Shown: one piece after another, positions 20,730 to 28,955 of the stretch
How positions within the stretch are numbered: the stretch's first letter is position 1
Layout: each line of letters begins with the position of its first letter
NCBI GenBank assembly: GCA_016928715.1
Contig: JAFGKG010000219.1
Span: 1 to 64,000 of the forward strand
Length of the DNA stretch: 64,000 bases
Reading direction: 5' to 3'
Origin: Chloroflexia bacterium
Lineage (GTDB): Bacteria > Chloroflexota > Chloroflexia > DTKN01
Made by a program: the position numbers and the translations under genes
Notes under the pieces: model-generated
Told to the model about the DNA's origin: nothing
The model's input: only the letters and a program-made list of their open reading frames with translations
Databases searched by the model: none

Positions 20730-20810
20730 GCCTTTGCAATTGACTTTGACGCAAACAACTAGATCCATCCAAAAGCTTCTGCCCCCTGCTGAGTGCAAAG
20801 GAGGACACTG

Positions 20811-23800
20811 GTGTCAGCGCACATTGTCGTGCTGGGGGGAACACTGGCAGGGGTCCGGGCTGCGCGCCGCCTGGCGGCGGCCGGCCTGGAGGTCACCCTG
20901 CTGGAACCCTCCCCCTTTCTTGGCGGTGATCTTGCCGGCAGCCTCACGGACTGGATGTCGGCCGCACCGGACCTGTTCGAGGCCGCACGGGAACCCCAAA
21001 TCCACTTGATGACCCAATCCACGGTCCAGAACGTGGCCCGGCATCCGGACGGGCTGCAGTTAGTAGTCCAGCAGGAGCCCCGCTACGTGGACCTGAGCCG
21101 CTGCACCGCCTGCGGCGAATGCGTGTTGGTCTGCCCGGTCGCCGTGCCGGTCGACAGCGCCGAGCCACAGCGGCGGGCCATCTACCGGCTGCCCCTGGAA
21201 CGTTCCGCGCCTAACGTCTATGCCATCCAAAAACGCGGAGAAGCCCCCTGCAGCCACACCTGCCCCGGGGGCATCCACGTCCAGGGATATGTCGCCCTCG
21301 TGGCCCAGGGCAAATTCCTGCCGGCCTACGACCTTATCTGTCAAGCCATTCCCTTTCCGGGGATCTGCGGCCGGGTCTGCCACCATCCCTGCGAGGCGGA
21401 GTGCAGCCGACGCGACCTGGACGGGCCGGTGGCCGTGCGCCCGCTGAAGCGCTTTGTGGCCGACTATGCCGTCGAACACGGGCACACGGCCTGGGAAGCG
21501 GTAGAGCCGGACCCCGATCTTGCCCCCGTAGCCGTGATCGGCGCCGGCCCGGCCGGCCTGACCGTGGCCTGGGAACTGGCCCGGCAGGGCGTCCGAGCCA
21601 CCGTTTTCGAGGCCCTGCCGGTGGCCGGCGGCATGATGGCCGTGGGCATCCCGGCCTACCGCCTGCCCCGCCAGGACCTGCAGCGCGAGATCGAGGCCAT
21701 CGAGGCCCTGGGCGTCGAGATCTGTTTGAACACGCCCCTGGGCCCCGAATTGACCCTGGACGAACTGTTCGACCGGGGCTATGGGGCCGTCTTTTTGGGG
21801 CTCGGGGCACACCGCGGCCGCGAACTGGGCGTGCCCGGGGAGGATCTGTGCGGCGTGGTGCCGGCGCTGGACCTGCTGCGCTCTGTCAGTATGGCCCAGT
21901 GGGAGGGCCTGCCCGATCCAGAGCTACCGGCGCACCTACAGCAGGACTGCGCGATATCGATCGGCCGGCGGGCCGCCGTCATTGGCGGCGGCAATACCGC
22001 CGTGGACTCGGCCCGCAGCCTGCTGCGCCTGGGCGCGGAAGGCGTCTATATTCTCTACCGCCGCTCCCGCCAAGAGATGCCCTGCCTGCCCGAAGAGATC
22101 GACGCCGCCGAGGAGGAGGGCGCCGTCCTCGAGATCCTGGTGACCCCCAAACGCATTTTGGGCCAGGATGGCCGGGTAACGGCCATCGAGTGCCTGCGCA
22201 TGGAATTGGGCGAGCCCGACGAGAGCGGCCGCCGCCGGCCCATCCCCATCCCGGGCAGCGAGTTCACCCTGGAGGTGGACATGGTCGTGCCGGCCATCGG
22301 CCAGCAGTTGGACCTGCCGCCGCAGTTGAAATCGCTGTGCGACGAGCGCGGCGGGCTGTGCGTCGACCCCGAGACGGGCTGTACACCCCGGGCCGGCGTC
22401 TTTGCCGCAGGCGACGTGGTCCGGGTACGCTCTGTGATCGACGCGGTCGGCGAGGCCAAGCGCGCCGCCGAAAATATCCTGCACTATCTGCGCGACGAGG
22501 AACTGTCCTGCCCCACCGCCGAAGCGGAACGCACCGTAGCCCATCCCCCGGCAGAGGAACTCGAGGCTGCCAGTAGAGAAACGCGGCATAATCCGATCGA
22601 GATTCCTCTCGTTCAGCGCCAGCGCAGTTTTGCCGAGGTCGAGTGCGTGCTGACGGAGGAGGAGGCCCTCGCCGAGGCCGGCCGCTGCCTGGCCTGCGGG
22701 ATCTGTTCCGAATGTATGGAGTGCGTCGCCGTCTGCGAGCCCCAGGCCATCCACCACGAGGCCCGGCCCCGTCACCTGACCCTGGAGGCCGATGCCGTCC
22801 TGCTGGCCAACGGCCAGGGATTGCCCCCCATGGAAGGCGTGTACCGCCTGCAGGAAGGCGATCCCGAGGCCATGGTCCGGGCGATGCTGACGGCCTTTGG
22901 CCAAGAGCAAGCACGGCCATCCCCGCTGCGCCAACGCCTGCAGCCCGCAGCGAGCGAAATGTCCCGCCTGGGCATCTTTCTCTGCCGCTGCGGCGAACAG
23001 ATTGCCGGGGCCGTCGACCTCGATGTCCTGCAGGCCCGCCTCTCCAAGCTGCCCCACGTGGTACGCGTGGAACAGGTTCGCTTTGCCTGCCTGCCCGAGG
23101 GCATCGAATTCCTGCGGCAGGCCAGCGCGGACCTGGACGGCGCCGTCCTGGCGGCCTGCTCCTGCTGCAACCTGGCCCAAACCTGTTACAGTTGTACCAG
23201 CCAGCGCGTGCGCTGCCGCGAGGGACTGGGCCTCTGGCAGGAATCCTTGGCCGAAAGCCTGCCCTCCTGGGCCTGGGAGTTTGTGAACCTGCGCGAGCAC
23301 TGCGCCTGGGTGCACGGCCCGGAGGATGCCCTGGAGACGGCCGGTGACTATATCGCCGCCGCCGCCGCGCGCCTGCGGGCCGATCCGCTGGTCCCCCTGG
23401 TCGCCCGGGTGGACGCGGCGCTCTGCCGGGCCTGCGGCACCTGCGAGAGCCTCTGCCAGGCCGAGGCCATCCGCCTGGAAGTGGACGCCCAGGGACGCCT
23501 CTGCGCCCGGGTAGACGAATCCCGCTGCCTGGCCTGTGGCACCTGCGCCGCGCACTGTCCCACCGGCGCGGTCGTGGCCGGCCGGGTCAGCGACCGCCAG
23601 ATCGAGGCCACGGTCGAGGCCATGGGCTATGCCGGCCCGGCCGAGCGCGTGGTCGTCTTTGCCTGCAACTGGGGCGGCCACAGCGGCGCCGAGGCGCTGG
23701 GCATGCAGCACCGGCAACTGCCGGCCGAGGTGCGCACCGTGCGGGTGCCCTGCCTGGGCCGCCTCTCGCCGGGGCTGCTGCTGCGTACATTGGAATTGGG

Positions 23801-24032
23801 CGCAGCCGGGGTGCTGCTGGCCGGCTGCCACGAGGACAGCTGCCGCTTTGAGTTTGGCCGCGAGTGGGCCGGGCAGGCCCTGCAGCAGGCCCAGGTGCTG
23901 GCCGACCTGGTCGGGCTGGGAGCGCAGCGCTTGGACATGGTCGGCATTGCCCCAGGCGATGCCGAGACGCTGGCCCAGGCCCTGGAACGCTTTGTGCGGC
24001 AGCTTACCCCGGAGCAATTGGCTCCCGTCTGA
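20811..24032 (+). CDS. Giant HdrA-like flavoprotein with GltD-type domain, ferredoxin domains and MvhD domain
   Basis: This 1073-residue redox protein consists of fused modules. Residues 1-95 are a HdrA-type FAD-binding half. C98 begins a [4Fe-4S] motif CTACGECVLVCP. Residues about 135-580 form a complete GltD/small glutamate synthase-like NAD(P)H:flavin unit, with CPGGIHVQGYVAL, AVIGAGPAGLTVA, AVIGGGNTAVDSAR and VFAAGDVV. Next are a further Cys cluster near 626 (CLACGICSECMECVAVC) and the HdrA CxCG domain near 720 (LGIFLCRCGEQIAG), followed by AACSCCNLAQTC. Two ferredoxin motifs follow near 872 and 905. Last is an MvhD domain from about 942 (VVVFACNWGGHSG). Such proteins take part in flavin-based electron bifurcation with HdrBC partners. 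GTG 20811 is chosen because AGGAGG lies 6 bases upstream. Iron-sulfur partner proteins are encoded downstream at 25091 and 27627. Confidence 0.85.
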   Translation: MSAHIVVLGGTLAGVRAARRLAAAGLEVTLLEPSPFLGGDLAGSLTDWMSAAPDLFEAAREPQIHLMTQSTVQNVARHPDGLQLVVQQEPRYVDLSRCTACGECVLVCPVAVPVDSAEPQRRAIYRLPLERSAPNVYAIQKRGEAPCSHTCPGGIHVQGYVALVAQGKFLPAYDLICQAIPFPGICGRVCHHPCEAECSRRDLDGPVAVRPLKRFVADYAVEHGHTAWEAVEPDPDLAPVAVIGAGPAGLTVAWELARQGVRATVFEALPVAGGMMAVGIPAYRLPRQDLQREIEAIEALGVEICLNTPLGPELTLDELFDRGYGAVFLGLGAHRGRELGVPGEDLCGVVPALDLLRSVSMAQWEGLPDPELPAHLQQDCAISIGRRAAVIGGGNTAVDSARSLLRLGAEGVYILYRRSRQEMPCLPEEIDAAEEEGAVLEILVTPKRILGQDGRVTAIECLRMELGEPDESGRRRPIPIPGSEFTLEVDMVVPAIGQQLDLPPQLKSLCDERGGLCVDPETGCTPRAGVFAAGDVVRVRSVIDAVGEAKRAAENILHYLRDEELSCPTAEAERTVAHPPAEELEAASRETRHNPIEIPLVQRQRSFAEVECVLTEEEALAEAGRCLACGICSECMECVAVCEPQAIHHEARPRHLTLEADAVLLANGQGLPPMEGVYRLQEGDPEAMVRAMLTAFGQEQARPSPLRQRLQPAASEMSRLGIFLCRCGEQIAGAVDLDVLQARLSKLPHVVRVEQVRFACLPEGIEFLRQASADLDGAVLAACSCCNLAQTCYSCTSQRVRCREGLGLWQESLAESLPSWAWEFVNLREHCAWVHGPEDALETAGDYIAAAAARLRADPLVPLVARVDAALCRACGTCESLCQAEAIRLEVDAQGRLCARVDESRCLACGTCAAHCPTGAVVAGRVSDRQIEATVEAMGYAGPAERVVVFACNWGGHSGAEALGMQHRQLPAEVRTVRVPCLGRLSPGLLLRTLELGAAGVLLAGCHEDSCRFEFGREWAGQALQQAQVLADLVGLGAQRLDMVGIAPGDAETLAQALERFVRQLTPEQLAPV

Positions 24033-24051: not shown

Positions 24052-24115
24052 GGTCCTGTAGCATATTGTGTCTGGACCATGGAAGGGAGTGGACCCGATA
24101 GGGTCGGAGGCTACG

Positions 24116-25081
24116 ATGGACGAACAATCATTGCCCGGATTGACCGCAGAGGCCTACCGTGCGGTCGTCGCCCTGATCGATGACCGCATGCGGGAGATTC
24201 GCGTCACCCGCGAGGATTTTGACCGGCTGACCTCCAGGGTCGCCGCGCTGGCCGAGGCGCAGTGGCGCACCGAGGAGCGCGTGAACGCCCTGGTCGAGGC
24301 GCAGCAGCACATCCTGGAACGGTTGGAACGCTTGGAGGCCACCGTCCAGGCCCTGGCCGAGGCGCAGTTGCGCACCGAGGAGCGGCTGGAGCGCTTGGAG
24401 GCCACTGTCCAGAATCTGGTCGAGGCGCAGCAGTACATCCTGGAACGGCTGGAACGCTTGGAGGCCACCGTCCAGGCCCTGGCCGAGGCGCAGTTGCGCA
24501 CCGAGGAGTGTGTGAACGTCCTGGTCGAGACGCAGCAGCACCTCCTGGAACGGTTGGATCGCTTGGAGGCCACCGTCCAGGCCCTGGCCGAGGCGCAGTT
24601 GCGCACCGAGGAGCGCGTGAACGACATACAGATCGACCTGGCCGGGATCAAGGGACGCGTCCTAGAGATGGATTACCGGGACAAGGCGCCCTCTTACTTT
24701 GGCCTGCTGCTGCGCCGGCTGCGGCTGCTACCCCTGGTCGAGATCGAGGACGAGATAGAGGCGCATCTTTCCGCCGGCGAGGTCGGAGAGATATTCCGTC
24801 TCGATTTCCTGCTGAGCGGCCGGCCGCGGCAGGTGCAGGATGCCCCGGAGGTCTGGCTGGCGGTGGAGGTCTCGTCGGTGGTGGACCGGCACGACGTCGA
24901 GCGGGCGCTACGCCGGGCCCGGCTGCTGCAGCGGCTGGGCCGGCCGGTGGTGCCGGTCGTCGCCGGGCTGGAGGCGACCCTGGGCGCCGCGCAGCAGGCC
25001 GAAGCGTCCGGCCTCCTGCTGCTCCAAGACGGCCGGACATTGTATTGGGAAGAGGCCCTGGCGGCGGCCTTGTCGGCATAA
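24116..25081 (+). CDS. Heptad-repeat coiled-coil protein with DUF3782-like nuclease-fold C-terminus
   Basis: This 321-residue protein has at residues about 35-180 near-exact repeats built from multiples of seven residues (units of 35 and 21), each containing LERLEATVQALAEAQ and LRTEER; the DNA repeats are also near-exact. These should form a long coiled coil. The C-terminal about 130 residues have FRLDFLLSG and VWLAVEVSSVVDR, a D...E-x-S pattern and helices like the PD-(D/E)xK fold found in DUF3782 proteins, which are common in filamentous and thermophilic bacteria. Whether it cuts DNA is unknown, and the usual E-x-K lysine is replaced by Ser here. ATG 24116 follows GGAGG. It sits between two redox genes, 9 bp before the next, but appears unrelated to them. 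Confidence 0.72.
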   Translation: MDEQSLPGLTAEAYRAVVALIDDRMREIRVTREDFDRLTSRVAALAEAQWRTEERVNALVEAQQHILERLERLEATVQALAEAQLRTEERLERLEATVQNLVEAQQYILERLERLEATVQALAEAQLRTEECVNVLVETQQHLLERLDRLEATVQALAEAQLRTEERVNDIQIDLAGIKGRVLEMDYRDKAPSYFGLLLRRLRLLPLVEIEDEIEAHLSAGEVGEIFRLDFLLSGRPRQVQDAPEVWLAVEVSSVVDRHDVERALRRARLLQRLGRPVVPVVAGLEATLGAAQQAEASGLLLLQDGRTLYWEEALAAALSA

Positions 25082-25090
25082 GAGGAAACG

Positions 25091-26239
25091 ATGAACTCAA
25101 TCAGAACCATTTCGTCCCAAACCCGTGCCGTGGCCTGCCTGGAGTGCGGCAAGTGCACGGCCGTCTGCCCGGTGGCCCGGCGCGACCCGGCCTTTTCGCC
25201 GCGGCGGCTGGTGGAGGAGGTGATCCAGGGCCGGCCGGGGGAGACACTGCACAACCCGGCCCTCTGGGAATGCCTGACCTGCCGAGCCTGCCACGAGCGC
25301 TGCCCGATGGGCGTGGACTATATCTCCTTTGTCCGCGACGTGCGTGCCCTGGCCCGGGAGGACGCGGTCGAAGCCCCCTGTTCCCACGGCGGTCTCTTGC
25401 AGACCCTGATGCGCCTGACGGCCGAACCGGCCCGCCGGCCGAACCGGCTGGGCTGGCTCGACGACAATCTCGAAATCTCGGAGGACGGCGAGACGCTCTA
25501 CTTTGTCGGCTGCACGCCCTTTTTCGAGGTCGCCTTTGCCGATCTGGAGGTCCCCGCACTGGAGACGGCCCGCAGCGTGGTGCGGCTGTTGAACGCCGCC
25601 GGCGAGCGGCCGCAGGTACTGGCCGAGGAGCGCTGCTGCGGGCACGACCTGCTCTGGGAGGGCGATGTGGAAAGTTTTGAGCGGCTGGCCGAGGCCAACC
25701 AGGCGCTCATCCGCGAGAGCGGGGTAAAGCGCATCGTCAGCGCCTGTCCCGAGGGCGTGCGCACGCTGGCGGTGGACTATCCGGCGCACGGCTACGACCT
25801 GGGGGTGGAGGTGCTGCACATCTCGCAGTGGCTGGCCGAGGCCCTGCGGCAGGGCCGGCTGGCGCTGCGGCCGCAGGAGCGGCGGCTGACCTACCAGGAC
25901 CCCTGCCGGCTGGGCCGGCACCTGGGCGAGTACGAGGCGCCCCGGACCGTGCTGGGCGCGCTGGGTGACCTGGTCGAGATGGAGCGCAGCGGCCGGCTGG
26001 CCCAATGCTGCGGCACGAGCTGCTGGACCGCCTGCGGGGCGGTGAACAAGCAGCTCCAGTTGGACCGCCTGCGCCAGGCCCGGGCTACCGGCGCCGACCT
26101 GCTGGTCACGGCCTGCCTCAAGTGCCAGATCCACTTTCTCTGCGCCATGGATGATCCGGATGTGGAGGAGGGGGAGCGGATCGAGGTGATCGACCTGGCC
26201 CAACTGGCGGCGCGGGGGCTAGAAACAGTTGAAGGATAG
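25091..26239 (+). CDS. HdrCB-like iron-sulfur protein with two CCG domains
   Basis: This 382-residue protein is of the heterodisulfide reductase/GlpC type. The N-terminal part has two [4Fe-4S] ferredoxin motifs (CLECGKCTAVCP and CLTCRACHERCP). It is followed by two cysteine-rich CCG domains: the first with FVGCTPFF and ERCCGHD, the second with YQDPCRLGRHLGEY, QCCGTSC and CLKCQIHF. The first domain lacks the final CxxC (it reads SACPEGV), so probably only the second binds a noncubane or similar cluster. It is the natural HdrBC-like partner of the HdrA-MvhD protein upstream, and the physiological electron acceptor is unknown. AGAGGAAAC precedes the ATG. It converges with the gene at 26246. Confidence 0.85.
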   Translation: MNSIRTISSQTRAVACLECGKCTAVCPVARRDPAFSPRRLVEEVIQGRPGETLHNPALWECLTCRACHERCPMGVDYISFVRDVRALAREDAVEAPCSHGGLLQTLMRLTAEPARRPNRLGWLDDNLEISEDGETLYFVGCTPFFEVAFADLEVPALETARSVVRLLNAAGERPQVLAEERCCGHDLLWEGDVESFERLAEANQALIRESGVKRIVSACPEGVRTLAVDYPAHGYDLGVEVLHISQWLAEALRQGRLALRPQERRLTYQDPCRLGRHLGEYEAPRTVLGALGDLVEMERSGRLAQCCGTSCWTACGAVNKQLQLDRLRQARATGADLLVTACLKCQIHFLCAMDDPDVEEGERIEVIDLAQLAARGLETVEG

Positions 26240-26245
26240 ATTCCC

Positions 26246-27334
26246 CTACTCCACCACGCTCAACCTGTCATTGGGCTCGTAGTGCACGCCGGCCCGGGCG
26301 CAGGGCGCGCCGTCCACCTCGACAATGTCGGCGTAATAGGCCAGCCGGCCCCGCAGCAGGGAACGGCCCACCGCGTAGGCGTCCACCGGCACACCGGCCT
26401 GCTCAAAGGCGCGGATGCGCTTGGGCGAAAAATCGCCGGCCACCACGATGCGGATAAAGGCAAAGCCGGCCTCGTCCAAGGCCTGCCGGACATTGCGCAC
26501 CAACTGCGGGTTCACACCCGTGGGCTTGAATTGGCCCATCTGCTCCAACAGCGAACGGTCCACCATGGTCTCGTCCGTGCCCAGGCGCACTCCCCACAAC
26601 CGCCGCTCCATGCGCCGCGCGACCGCCAGCGCGGCGCCCACGCAGTCGTTGTCAAAGTCCACCGAGACGATCAGGTCGACCTCGGGCTCCAGGTGGGCCT
26701 CGAACTGCAAGGCCGCCCGCACCGTGTCCCCCCCGTAGCAGGCGATCAGCGAGGCCGGCACCGTGGCCAGACCCGGCCGGCCCCACCAGGCCCCCTGAGC
26801 GTCCGTGCCCACCCCCAGCGCGCCGCTGATGTAGGCGGCGTAGCCGTCGCCGGTCTGGACCAGGTGGTGGTCGAAACGGGCGGGGAAAAAGAGCACCGGC
26901 TTGCCCCCCGCCGCCTCCACTACCGCCGCCGTGTTCGTGGCCACCCGCGTCCGCCGGGCCAGCACGCCCAGAAAATCCGTCTCTAGCTGGGCGAACAGGG
27001 CATAGTCCCCCTCGATGGTCATGACCGGCTCGTAGGGCGTGGCCCGCTCGCCGTCGTAGAGGCTCTGCACCCGCAACTGCTCCCAGCCCTCGACCCAGTC
27101 GCCCCCCTCCCCAGGATGCCCGCTGCATAACTTGAGGATGGCGATGGCCTCGTCCGTCCCGCCGACAACCACGGCCTGCCGCTGGTACACCACCATCAGC
27201 ACCCGCGGGTGCCTGTCCTCCCGCAGCAGGACCTGCTGGGCCCGCGAGAGGTCCTGGTCCGCATAGTAGCCCACCCGCATCTTTTCCACGGGCAGGTTCA
27301 AAATGGCCGGGTCCAAGCGTTTCCGCAGCAACAT
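26246..27334 (-). CDS. Nicotinate phosphoribosyltransferase-like protein
   Basis: This 362-residue protein is of the nicotinate/quinolinate phosphoribosyltransferase superfamily, most like the archaeal-type nicotinate phosphoribosyltransferases that make NaMN from nicotinate and PRPP. The N-terminal VGYYADQDLSRAQQVLL is the family's opening, followed by the barrel with ARFDHHLVQTGDGYAAY, LIVSVDFDNDCVGAAL, RLGTDETM, VVAGDFSPKRIRAFE and the DIVEVDGAPCARAG ending typical of PncB proteins. ATG 27334 has GAGGTGGAGC directly upstream; a longer reading runs into the tRNA gene. The gene starts 63 bp downstream of tRNA-Leu on the same strand and may share its promoter. Confidence 0.82.
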   Translation of the reverse strand: MLLRKRLDPAILNLPVEKMRVGYYADQDLSRAQQVLLREDRHPRVLMVVYQRQAVVVGGTDEAIAILKLCSGHPGEGGDWVEGWEQLRVQSLYDGERATPYEPVMTIEGDYALFAQLETDFLGVLARRTRVATNTAAVVEAAGGKPVLFFPARFDHHLVQTGDGYAAYISGALGVGTDAQGAWWGRPGLATVPASLIACYGGDTVRAALQFEAHLEPEVDLIVSVDFDNDCVGAALAVARRMERRLWGVRLGTDETMVDRSLLEQMGQFKPTGVNPQLVRNVRQALDEAGFAFIRIVVAGDFSPKRIRAFEQAGVPVDAYAVGRSLLRGRLAYYADIVEVDGAPCARAGVHYEPNDRLSVVE

Positions 27335-27397
27335 GCTCCACCTCTTTTTTTCAGCTAGGGCCGTCACTCCCATGATTCCCGGCCCGGTGGGGGAAGG

Positions 27398-27478
27398 TGG
27401 GCAAGGAGGGATTCGAACCCTCACGCCTGGCGGCATATGCTCCTAAGGCATACGTGTCTGCCGTTCCACCACTTGCCC
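27398..27478 (-). tRNA. tRNA-Leu (anticodon UAG)
   Basis: On the minus strand an 81-nt class II tRNA can be folded: acceptor GGGCAAG pairing with CTTGCCC, discriminator A, D-arm TGGTGGAACGGCAGACACG, anticodon stem-loop with loop CTTAGGA giving anticodon UAG, a long variable arm (TGCCGCCAGGCG region) and T-loop GGTTCGAATCC. The CCA end is not fully encoded (CCT follows the discriminator). It reads CUA and other CUN leucine codons. Confidence 0.95.
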
Positions 27479-27626: not shown

Positions 27627-28955
27627 ATGTCAGAGAAGGAAATCCAGAGCAAACCATTTCCCCAGGGGGCGCTCCCTGACGAGGCCCAGATCCAGTCCTG
27701 CATCCGCTGCGGGCTCTGCTCCGCCGTCTGCCCCATCTACCAGGAGACGCGCATGGAAACCGACGCGCCGCGCGGCCGCATCGCCCTGGTGCGGGCAGTC
27801 CTGGAGGGCCGGCTGGAGCCCAGCCCGCGCTTTAAAAAGATCGTCTACCAATGCCTGGCCTGCCAGGCCTGCGTCGATATCTGCCCGGCCGGCGTGCGCA
27901 CGGACCAACTGATGATGGCCGCCCGCGCCTACCTCCTTGAATTGGAGGGCCGCCACTGGTTCCGCAACATGCTCTTTGGCTGGCTCCTGCCCAAACCGGC
28001 CCGCCTAGAAAAGGCCACCATGCCCCTGCGCTGCTACGAACGGCTGGGCCTGCGCCGCCTGGTCGACCGCGCCGGCCTGGATCGGCTGCTGCCCCGGCGC
28101 CTGCGCGAGATGTCCTGGCTGCTGCCCCCCATCCCCCGCCGGCCCCTGCGCCCCCAGTTGGAGCGGGTGACCCCCGCCTATAACGGTTCGGCCGGCCAGG
28201 AGCCCCGCTGCCGGATTGGCTATTTCCTGGGCTGCGCCCAGGACGTCATGTTCGCCTCGGCCAGCGCGGCCACAGTGCGCGTCCTGACCCGCAATGGCTG
28301 CGAGGTCTATACGCCCGCGGTGACCTGCTGCGGTATGCCCCATCTGGGCTACGGCGAACTGGAGCGGGCCAAGGACCTGGCCCGCCAGAACATCGACGCC
28401 TTTACCGGCCAGGACCTGCAGGCCGTCATTACAGACTGCGCCTCCTGCGCCTCCACCCTGCACGAGTACGGCGAACTGCTGGCCGACGACCCCGCCTACG
28501 CCGAAAAGGCCCGTGCCTTTTCGGAGCGGGTGCGCGATATCAGCCAATTCCTCGACGAGATCGGCATCGAGCCGCCCCAGGGCCGGCTGGACGTGCGCGT
28601 CACCTATCACGATCCCTGCCACCTGGTGCGCGGAATGGGTGTCTCGGCCGCGCCGCGCCGGCTGCTGCAGTCCATCCCCGGCCTCGAACTGGTCGAGATG
28701 GAGGAGGCCAATTGGTGCTGCGGCAACGCCGGCAGCCACGCCATCACCGAGACGGAGGAATCGGGCCGCCTGCTGGACCGCAAGATGGCCCACGTGGCCG
28801 ACACCGATGCCCAACTCGTCGCCAGCGGCTGCCCCGGCTGCCAACTGCAGCTCTGGCGCGGCGTGCGCCGCTGGAACCTGCCCATGCAGGTGGTCCACCC
28901 CATCGAACTGCTCGACCAGGCCTACCGCAACGGAGAAAAGACAAACAAGCGCTGA
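27627..28955 (+). CDS. GlcF/HdrD-like iron-sulfur oxidoreductase subunit
   Basis: This 442-residue protein resembles GlcF, the iron-sulfur subunit of glycolate oxidase, and the LutA/GlpC family. It has two [4Fe-4S] motifs near the N-terminus (CIRCGLCSAVCP, CLACQACVDICP) and two CCG domains: IGYFLGCAQD with VTCCGMPHLGYGE and DCASCASTLHEYG, then TYHDPCHLVRGMG with WCCGNAG and GCPGCQLQL. Both CCG domains are complete, unlike those of the protein at 25091. GlcD-type flavoprotein genes, the usual partners in glycolate or lactate oxidation, are not in the window. It may instead work with the HdrA-like protein; this is inferred only from distance (about 3.6 kb). The ribosome site AGAGGAT is upstream. 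Confidence 0.85.
   Translation: MSEKEIQSKPFPQGALPDEAQIQSCIRCGLCSAVCPIYQETRMETDAPRGRIALVRAVLEGRLEPSPRFKKIVYQCLACQACVDICPAGVRTDQLMMAARAYLLELEGRHWFRNMLFGWLLPKPARLEKATMPLRCYERLGLRRLVDRAGLDRLLPRRLREMSWLLPPIPRRPLRPQLERVTPAYNGSAGQEPRCRIGYFLGCAQDVMFASASAATVRVLTRNGCEVYTPAVTCCGMPHLGYGELERAKDLARQNIDAFTGQDLQAVITDCASCASTLHEYGELLADDPAYAEKARAFSERVRDISQFLDEIGIEPPQGRLDVRVTYHDPCHLVRGMGVSAAPRRLLQSIPGLELVEMEEANWCCGNAGSHAITETEESGRLLDRKMAHVADTDAQLVASGCPGCQLQLWRGVRRWNLPMQVVHPIELLDQAYRNGEKTNKR

Follow-up and report, generated by a model that had tools for sequence, protein, structure and literature searches.

A reduced, MvhD-fused relative of tandem HdrA proteins as a probable non-bifurcating NAD(P)H-to-MvhD electron relay

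HdrA belongs to the small number of flavin-based electron-bifurcating units known so far, and a single chain that joins HdrA parts to a GltD-type NAD(P)H unit and an MvhD domain raises the question of whether it bifurcates electrons by itself. Such a chain, here called P0001, is encoded in a 64,000-nucleotide stretch of a Chloroflexia genome (the window, meaning the whole stretch that was analysed). The first-pass annotation proposed that its HdrA domains are permuted and that it forms a self-contained bifurcating core. The features on which the analysis rests are as follows:

20800–20804, + strand: ribosome-binding site GGAGG (sequence)
20811–24032, + strand: the whole P0001 gene, 1073 aa (open frame, profile matches)
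20811–21080, + strand: N-half of the first HdrA FAD (TrxR-like) domain, GGxxAG kept, Cys197 motif lost (alignment to HdrA 145–235, motif count, modelled Rossmann strands and helices)
21102–21140, + strand: first cluster motif of the HdrA inserted ferredoxin, CxxCxxCxxxCP (profile match, alignment, sequence)
21240–22496, + strand: GltD unit with a two-cluster N-terminal domain and FAD and NAD(P)H Rossmann folds; Lys213 at the StnC K170 position (profiles, structure match)
22683–22736, + strand: six-cysteine region (residues 625–642), the last four cysteines forming the second cluster motif of the split HdrA ferredoxin (alignment)
22788–22886, + strand: FAD-domain remnant after GltD, an ADAVLLANG strand and a degenerate GVY...helix (alignment; the tail match in P0001 is weak)
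22956–23390, + strand: CxCG domain, homologous to the HdrA N-terminal Fe-S domain (alignment)
23151–23216, + strand: CxCC-x5-C-x2-C motif, common only to P0001, L009 and L030 among the relatives compared (alignment)
23424–23558, + strand: two C-terminal [4Fe-4S] motifs, the HdrA C-terminal ferredoxin domain (profiles, alignment)
23649–24005, + strand: fused MvhD/FlpD domain with four cysteines (FlpD profile; 9sw2_D and 5odc_D matches)
25091–26239, + strand: HdrCB-like partner candidate with HdrC-like ferredoxin (Fer4) and CCG domains (Pfam, NCBIfam)

The reading frame begins with a GTG codon at 20811, preceded by an AGGAGG site (GGAGG at 20800), and its GC and GC3 are high and even across all domains. 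Pfam and NCBIfam profiles divide the product into an HdrA FAD N-half (residues 1–90), a ferredoxin motif (98–108), a GltD unit (Fer4_20 and Pyr_redox_2, 144–562), a Cys-rich stretch, a CxCG domain, two ferredoxin motifs (872–916) and FlpD/MvhD (947–1065, cluster cysteines 952, 981, 1006 and 1011), with E-values far above chance (FlpD 3e-28, Pyr_redox_2 4e-32). In sequence alignments to solved HdrA (residue numbering of 5odc), P0001 residues 4–142 correspond to HdrA 145–291, the stretch C-terminal to GltD to HdrA ~293–329, residues 716–860 to HdrA 2–135 (the N-terminal CxCG Fe-S domain, positioned here after GltD) and residues 862–938 to HdrA 567–647 (the C-terminal ferredoxin domain), so that both the inserted and the C-terminal ferredoxin domains of HdrA are present. 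The second half of the split inserted ferredoxin, at residues 625–642, had been overlooked in the first-pass annotation; the domain order which that annotation described, and its view that a single chain combines the NAD(P)H unit, the clusters and MvhD, are both confirmed. The C-terminal ferredoxins directly abut the CxCG domain because the second FAD domain is absent. An AlphaFold2 model has a mean pLDDT of 81, with residues 1–660 mostly above 90 and the MvhD part below 50. The VIA-align matches listed for it include no HdrA structure for the first 140 residues, since GltD matches fill the list; sequence alignment identifies these residues as HdrA-derived.

The unusual order of these parts is explained by the relatives of P0001. 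Intact relatives adopt three layouts: CxCG first, followed by FAD/Fd/GltD/FAD/Fd (~1120–1150 aa, e.g. L017, L063, L081); FAD/Fd/GltD/FAD alone (~920–970 aa, e.g. L089); and a tandem form, FAD/Fd/GltD/FAD-CxCG-FAD-Fd (~1500 aa; L010, L048, L082, L083, L084, L088), with the same order as P0001. The window genome itself encodes two intact tandem paralogues of P0001, of 1502 aa on contig C17 and 1525 aa on contig C75. Intact GltD-containing tandem HdrA proteins of ~1500 aa also occur at L010, L012, L014, L016, L025, L027, L029, L032, L034 and L048, in MAGs and genomes assigned to Chloroflexota, Spirochaetota, Gemmatimonadota, Actinomycetota, Bacillota, Myxococcota and Pseudomonadota. The order in P0001 is not permuted, as the first-pass annotation had it, because intact tandem relatives share it: the order is real and inherited from the tandem type, a known type that the annotation did not recognize. 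A circular permutation of HdrA is likewise ruled out, since tandem proteins of identical order account for the layout. In the HdrA of Moorella thermoacetica, an extra N-terminal ferredoxin and TrxR domain, interrupted by GltD, precedes a second HdrA unit (PMC9430772), and insertion of GltD/NfnB into the HdrA ferredoxin is known for archaeal type III or HdrA9-11 proteins (PMC12054007; PMC9012536).

Comparison with these systems defines what P0001 retains. The Moorella thermoacetica-type protein, part of HdrABC-MvhD-MetVF, has the same GltD-split TrxR/Fd part followed by an N-terminal-type Fe-S domain and C-terminal ferredoxins, and likewise has MvhD as a partner. It differs in its size of 162.8 kDa, its two TrxR/FAD domains and its separate MvhD (PMC9430772), whereas in P0001 little of the first FAD domain and none of the second is left, and MvhD is fused. 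The same loss, with the first TrxR/FAD domain truncated and the second absent, distinguishes it from L010, L048, L082, L083, L084 and L088. Type III HdrA and HdrA9-10-11 (ANME-1, Bathyarchaeota) share the insertion of NfnB/GltD at the inserted ferredoxin, but E356 and K409 occur in all type III sequences (PMC12054007) and P0001 lacks that segment. HdrA2-type (type Ia) HdrA-MvhD fusions resemble P0001 in having C-terminal ferredoxins followed by fused MvhD; they possess a complete TrxR/FAD domain and no GltD, in contrast to the truncated FAD domain and the GltD unit of P0001, which scores 292 bits against the NCBIfam HdrA2 model (cut-off 1100). Qmo families are not found among the best 25 of its 102 NCBIfam matches. 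On alignment, P0001 is a cut-down paralogue of the Moorella-type tandem HdrA with MvhD fused; the GltD-containing tandem group is already known, and the reduced, MvhD-fused form is new.

The reduction removes the part of HdrA associated with bifurcation. Between the strand that follows the split ferredoxin and the last FAD-domain helix, ~180–190 residues present in relatives are gone from P0001 and from two MAG proteins, L009 and L030. This segment, passed over in the first-pass annotation, corresponds approximately to HdrA 332–545 (5odc) and contains E356, K409, C386, C399, C403 and C404; nothing in P0001 aligns to it, which leaves the TrxR-like FAD domain incomplete and without the C386/C399/C403/C404 cluster. 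E356 and K409 serve to distinguish bifurcating from non-bifurcating HdrA; every type III protein and most other HdrA proteins retain both (PMC12054007). Of the second FAD domain nothing remains in P0001, and L009 and L030 keep a decayed version of ~170 residues. All three proteins have a degenerate pyrophosphate/ribityl-side motif (GPKDIP...QASAAA), and L030 lacks the acidic residue of the FAD fingerprint as well, while the C-terminal FAD-domain helix is still recognizable in L009 and L030. Regarding the two FAD-binding sites, whose joint lack the first-pass annotation had named as evidence against its own proposal, the HdrA site is truncated and the GltD site is intact.

The Cys197 motif of HdrA (DCSxC/DCxxC) donates a cluster ligand to a partner HdrA (PMC9012536). 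It is present in 46 of the 51 rows counted and absent from P0001, L009, L030, L027 and L032, in agreement with the earlier remark that the LDCSAC cluster motif after the FAD fold is missing; given L027 and L032, this loss is not an exclusive marker of P0001, L009 and L030. The CxCC-x5-C-x2-C motif of the CxCG domain occurs in these three proteins and in no other open reading frame with a BLAST match to P0001, and its additional cysteines may stand in for Cys197, as the three sequences suggest. In a tree built from only the GltD part, P0001 and L009 fall together (SH-aLRT 94), and constraining P0001, L009 and L030 to one group improves the tree by 4.65 log units over the free quick search (p-AU 0.675). 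The sequences are thus compatible with a single origin of the reduced form, and the GltD tree falls short of proving the clade because L030 is a long branch. The architecture of P0001 was found in none of 158 genomes of the class or 400 of the phylum (E 1e-100), in none of the phylum when searched with its C-terminal half, and in none of 13 genomes of the order of G184, whose contig C50 seems to be the L009 locus; the window genome is the only one in its own order. Among the genomes searched, MvhD fusion and total loss of the second FAD domain are seen in P0001 only.

The sole complete flavin unit that remains is GltD. The top structure match of the P0001 model is the GltD part of NfnABC (9bov_A; Z 48.5, rmsd 1.8, 471 aligned), followed by that of StnC (8oh5_C; Z 46.6, rmsd 1.8, 471 aligned), and both matches extend to residue ~654. 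The FAD and NAD(P)H motifs GAGPAG, GGGNTA and AAGD are intact. In StnC, a conserved lysine (K170) ligands the cluster next to an FAD that is non-bifurcating and feeds a linear cluster chain (PMC10482914). The corresponding residue is K213 in P0001 and also a lysine in 9bov and 9n5u, whereas the bifurcating NfnB enzymes have a glutamate at this ligand position (LERF in 4ylf_B and 5vj7_A versus LKRF in P0001), a Lys/Glu distinction based on few characterized enzymes. The NfnB R201 equivalent in P0001 is R284, and StnC also has a conserved arginine at this position (PMC10482914). StnC and the NfnA of NfnABC (8oh5_C, 9bov_A, 9n5u_A) resemble P0001 in combining a GltD unit with a C-terminal Cys motif and a lysine cluster ligand. 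StnC continues into a NuoG/FdhF-like remainder, in place of which P0001 carries HdrA- and MvhD-like parts, with no NuoG/FdhF-like Pfam match. By analogy with StnC as an NAD(P)H-to-cluster wire, the GltD of P0001 would be a non-bifurcating entry point for NAD(P)H. Its NAD(P) motif, the second Rossmann motif, lies at window positions 21978–22007 and reads GGGNTA (GxGxxA); NAD preference in type III HdrA has been argued from a GxGxxG motif (PMC12054007), and that motif may be the FAD motif found in every GltD.

The genes at 20811–24032, 24068–25081 and 25091–26239 are tightly packed on one strand. The first-pass annotation had suggested the products of 25091 and 27627 as partners, and the former suggestion is upheld by conserved linkage in two other MAG loci: in L009 and L030, orthologues of 25091 (~45% identity) come after the gene for the reduced HdrA-GltD protein and one for a stand-alone MvhD. 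Orthologues also lie near HdrA-GltD genes in L062, L069 and L070. The gene order in L009 and L030 is KorABC-like, reduced HdrA-GltD, MvhD, HdrCB and selenocysteine-type HdrA-MvhD. The KorABC-like genes, for a 2-oxoacid:ferredoxin oxidoreductase, are directly upstream of the reduced gene (L009 5388–7954, L030 5272–7373); in the window genome, KorABC genes are found at the very start of contig C85 (C85:1-2613, L125; 52, 47 and 43% identity). The HdrA-MvhD gene contains an in-frame TGA at DCS-CILGPKM, probably encoding selenocysteine, in L009 (13324–15762), in L030 (12867–15428) and on contig C110 of the window genome (L085 1462–4098, − strand; 69% identity). The set is therefore present in the window genome but not as one operon, HdrCB adjoining P0001 and HdrA-MvhD and KorABC being located on other contigs.

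The gene at 24068–25081 (+ strand), between P0001 and the HdrCB gene, encodes a coiled-coil protein of repeated LEATVQALAEAQLRTEER units with a different C-terminal domain, and no orthologue of it lies beside L009 or L030. The gene at 27627–28955 (+ strand) belongs to a separate unit past an opposite-strand gene and encodes a GlcF/LdhH-like iron-sulfur protein that has Fer4 and two CCG domains. It was rejected as a partner: its best NCBIfam scores are to LdhH and GlcF, the opposite-strand gene (26246–27436) separates it from 25091, and it has no orthologue beside the reduced genes of L009 and L030, where only the HdrCB-like genes themselves are matched. It is likely unrelated to P0001. Elsewhere in the same genome, contig C155 (L086) carries a cluster of HdrA fragments with NuoF-like, formate-dehydrogenase-like and further Hdr-like genes.

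Taken as a whole, P0001 is probably a reduced tandem-HdrA paralogue that works as a non-bifurcating electron relay from NAD(P)H to MvhD, with an HdrCB-type protein and probably also a separate HdrA as the partners it serves. The anatomy of the chain, the missing segment, the kinship with tandem HdrA and the linkage to HdrCB are observed. From these we infer cofactor occupancy, cluster order, direction of flow, the HdrA partner and the lack of bifurcation. NAD(P)H would be oxidized at the GltD FAD, and electrons would exit singly via the GltD clusters and those of the split HdrA ferredoxin, continue through the CxCG-domain cluster and then the C-terminal ferredoxins, and arrive at the [2Fe-2S] cluster of the fused MvhD. 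MvhD would pass them to, or receive them from, a partner complex comprising the HdrCB-like protein of 25091 and probably a separate, complete HdrA, in which any bifurcation would take place. P0001 itself would be non-bifurcating, given its truncated HdrA flavin domains and StnC-like GltD. Several points count against this relay: the low model confidence of the MvhD part, the location of the proposed HdrA partner on a different contig, the singleton status of the exact architecture, and the kept, confidently modelled GGxxAG Rossmann half, which might still bind a flavin. An analogy is offered by FlxABCD-HdrABC, an NADH dehydrogenase/heterodisulfide reductase named in a title that PMC5861303 cites: there too an NADH input module serves an Hdr complex, as a separate multi-subunit module rather than one chain.

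The relay has to be weighed against readings that assign more, or less, to the same parts. The self-contained bifurcating core, in which NAD(P)H electrons are split within P0001 at the truncated HdrA flavin or at an NfnB-like GltD FAD, draws on a chain that contains every cluster motif needed for two exits, an intact, confidently modelled GGxxAG half-site, and the NfnB-type arginine R284, which StnC nevertheless shares. It is doubtful: E356, K409 and C386/C399/C403/C404 are missing with the whole surrounding segment, the only complete flavin unit has the lysine ligand of non-bifurcating StnC (PMC10482914) rather than the NfnB glutamate, and the chain lacks an NfnA-like second flavin subunit. 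A milder alternative, that the truncated HdrA fold binds FAD as an ordinary one-electron relay or structural cofactor, giving two flavins and no bifurcation, is somewhat better placed, yet still unlikely. Residues 1–88 and 654–665 are predicted with high confidence to form a Rossmann sheet and the last FAD-domain helix persists in L009 and L030, but the GPKDIP...QASAAA degeneration in all three proteins and the lost acidic residue of L030 speak against a bound flavin.

Finally, P0001 could have lost its function and be in decay beside its intact tandem HdrA paralogues of the same genome, in keeping with its big internal losses, long branch and singleton architecture and with the complete paralogues elsewhere in the genome. 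This appears very improbable: the 3.2-kb frame is intact behind a strong ribosome site with high GC3 over every domain, cluster cysteines are kept throughout, the gene is tightly packed with that for HdrCB, and related reduced proteins occur in two other lineages, in ordered operons.

The relay reading can be carried further, tentatively, to the three reduced proteins together. P0001, L009 and L030 may constitute a clade whose HdrA is no longer a bifurcating flavoprotein but has become an Fe-S wire equipped with an NAD(P)H entry of its own, the CxCG cluster being re-liganded within its domain by CxCC-x5-C-x2-C in place of the cross-subunit Cys197; P0001 would add the fused MvhD exit, yielding a one-chain NAD(P)H-to-Hdr adaptor. 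A lineage that has full Fe-S wiring and an NAD(P)H site, minus the bifurcating flavin domain, would represent a natural deletion experiment that tells the wire parts of HdrA from its switch parts. It also cautions that domain content alone is insufficient to label every HdrA-GltD-MvhD fusion as bifurcating.
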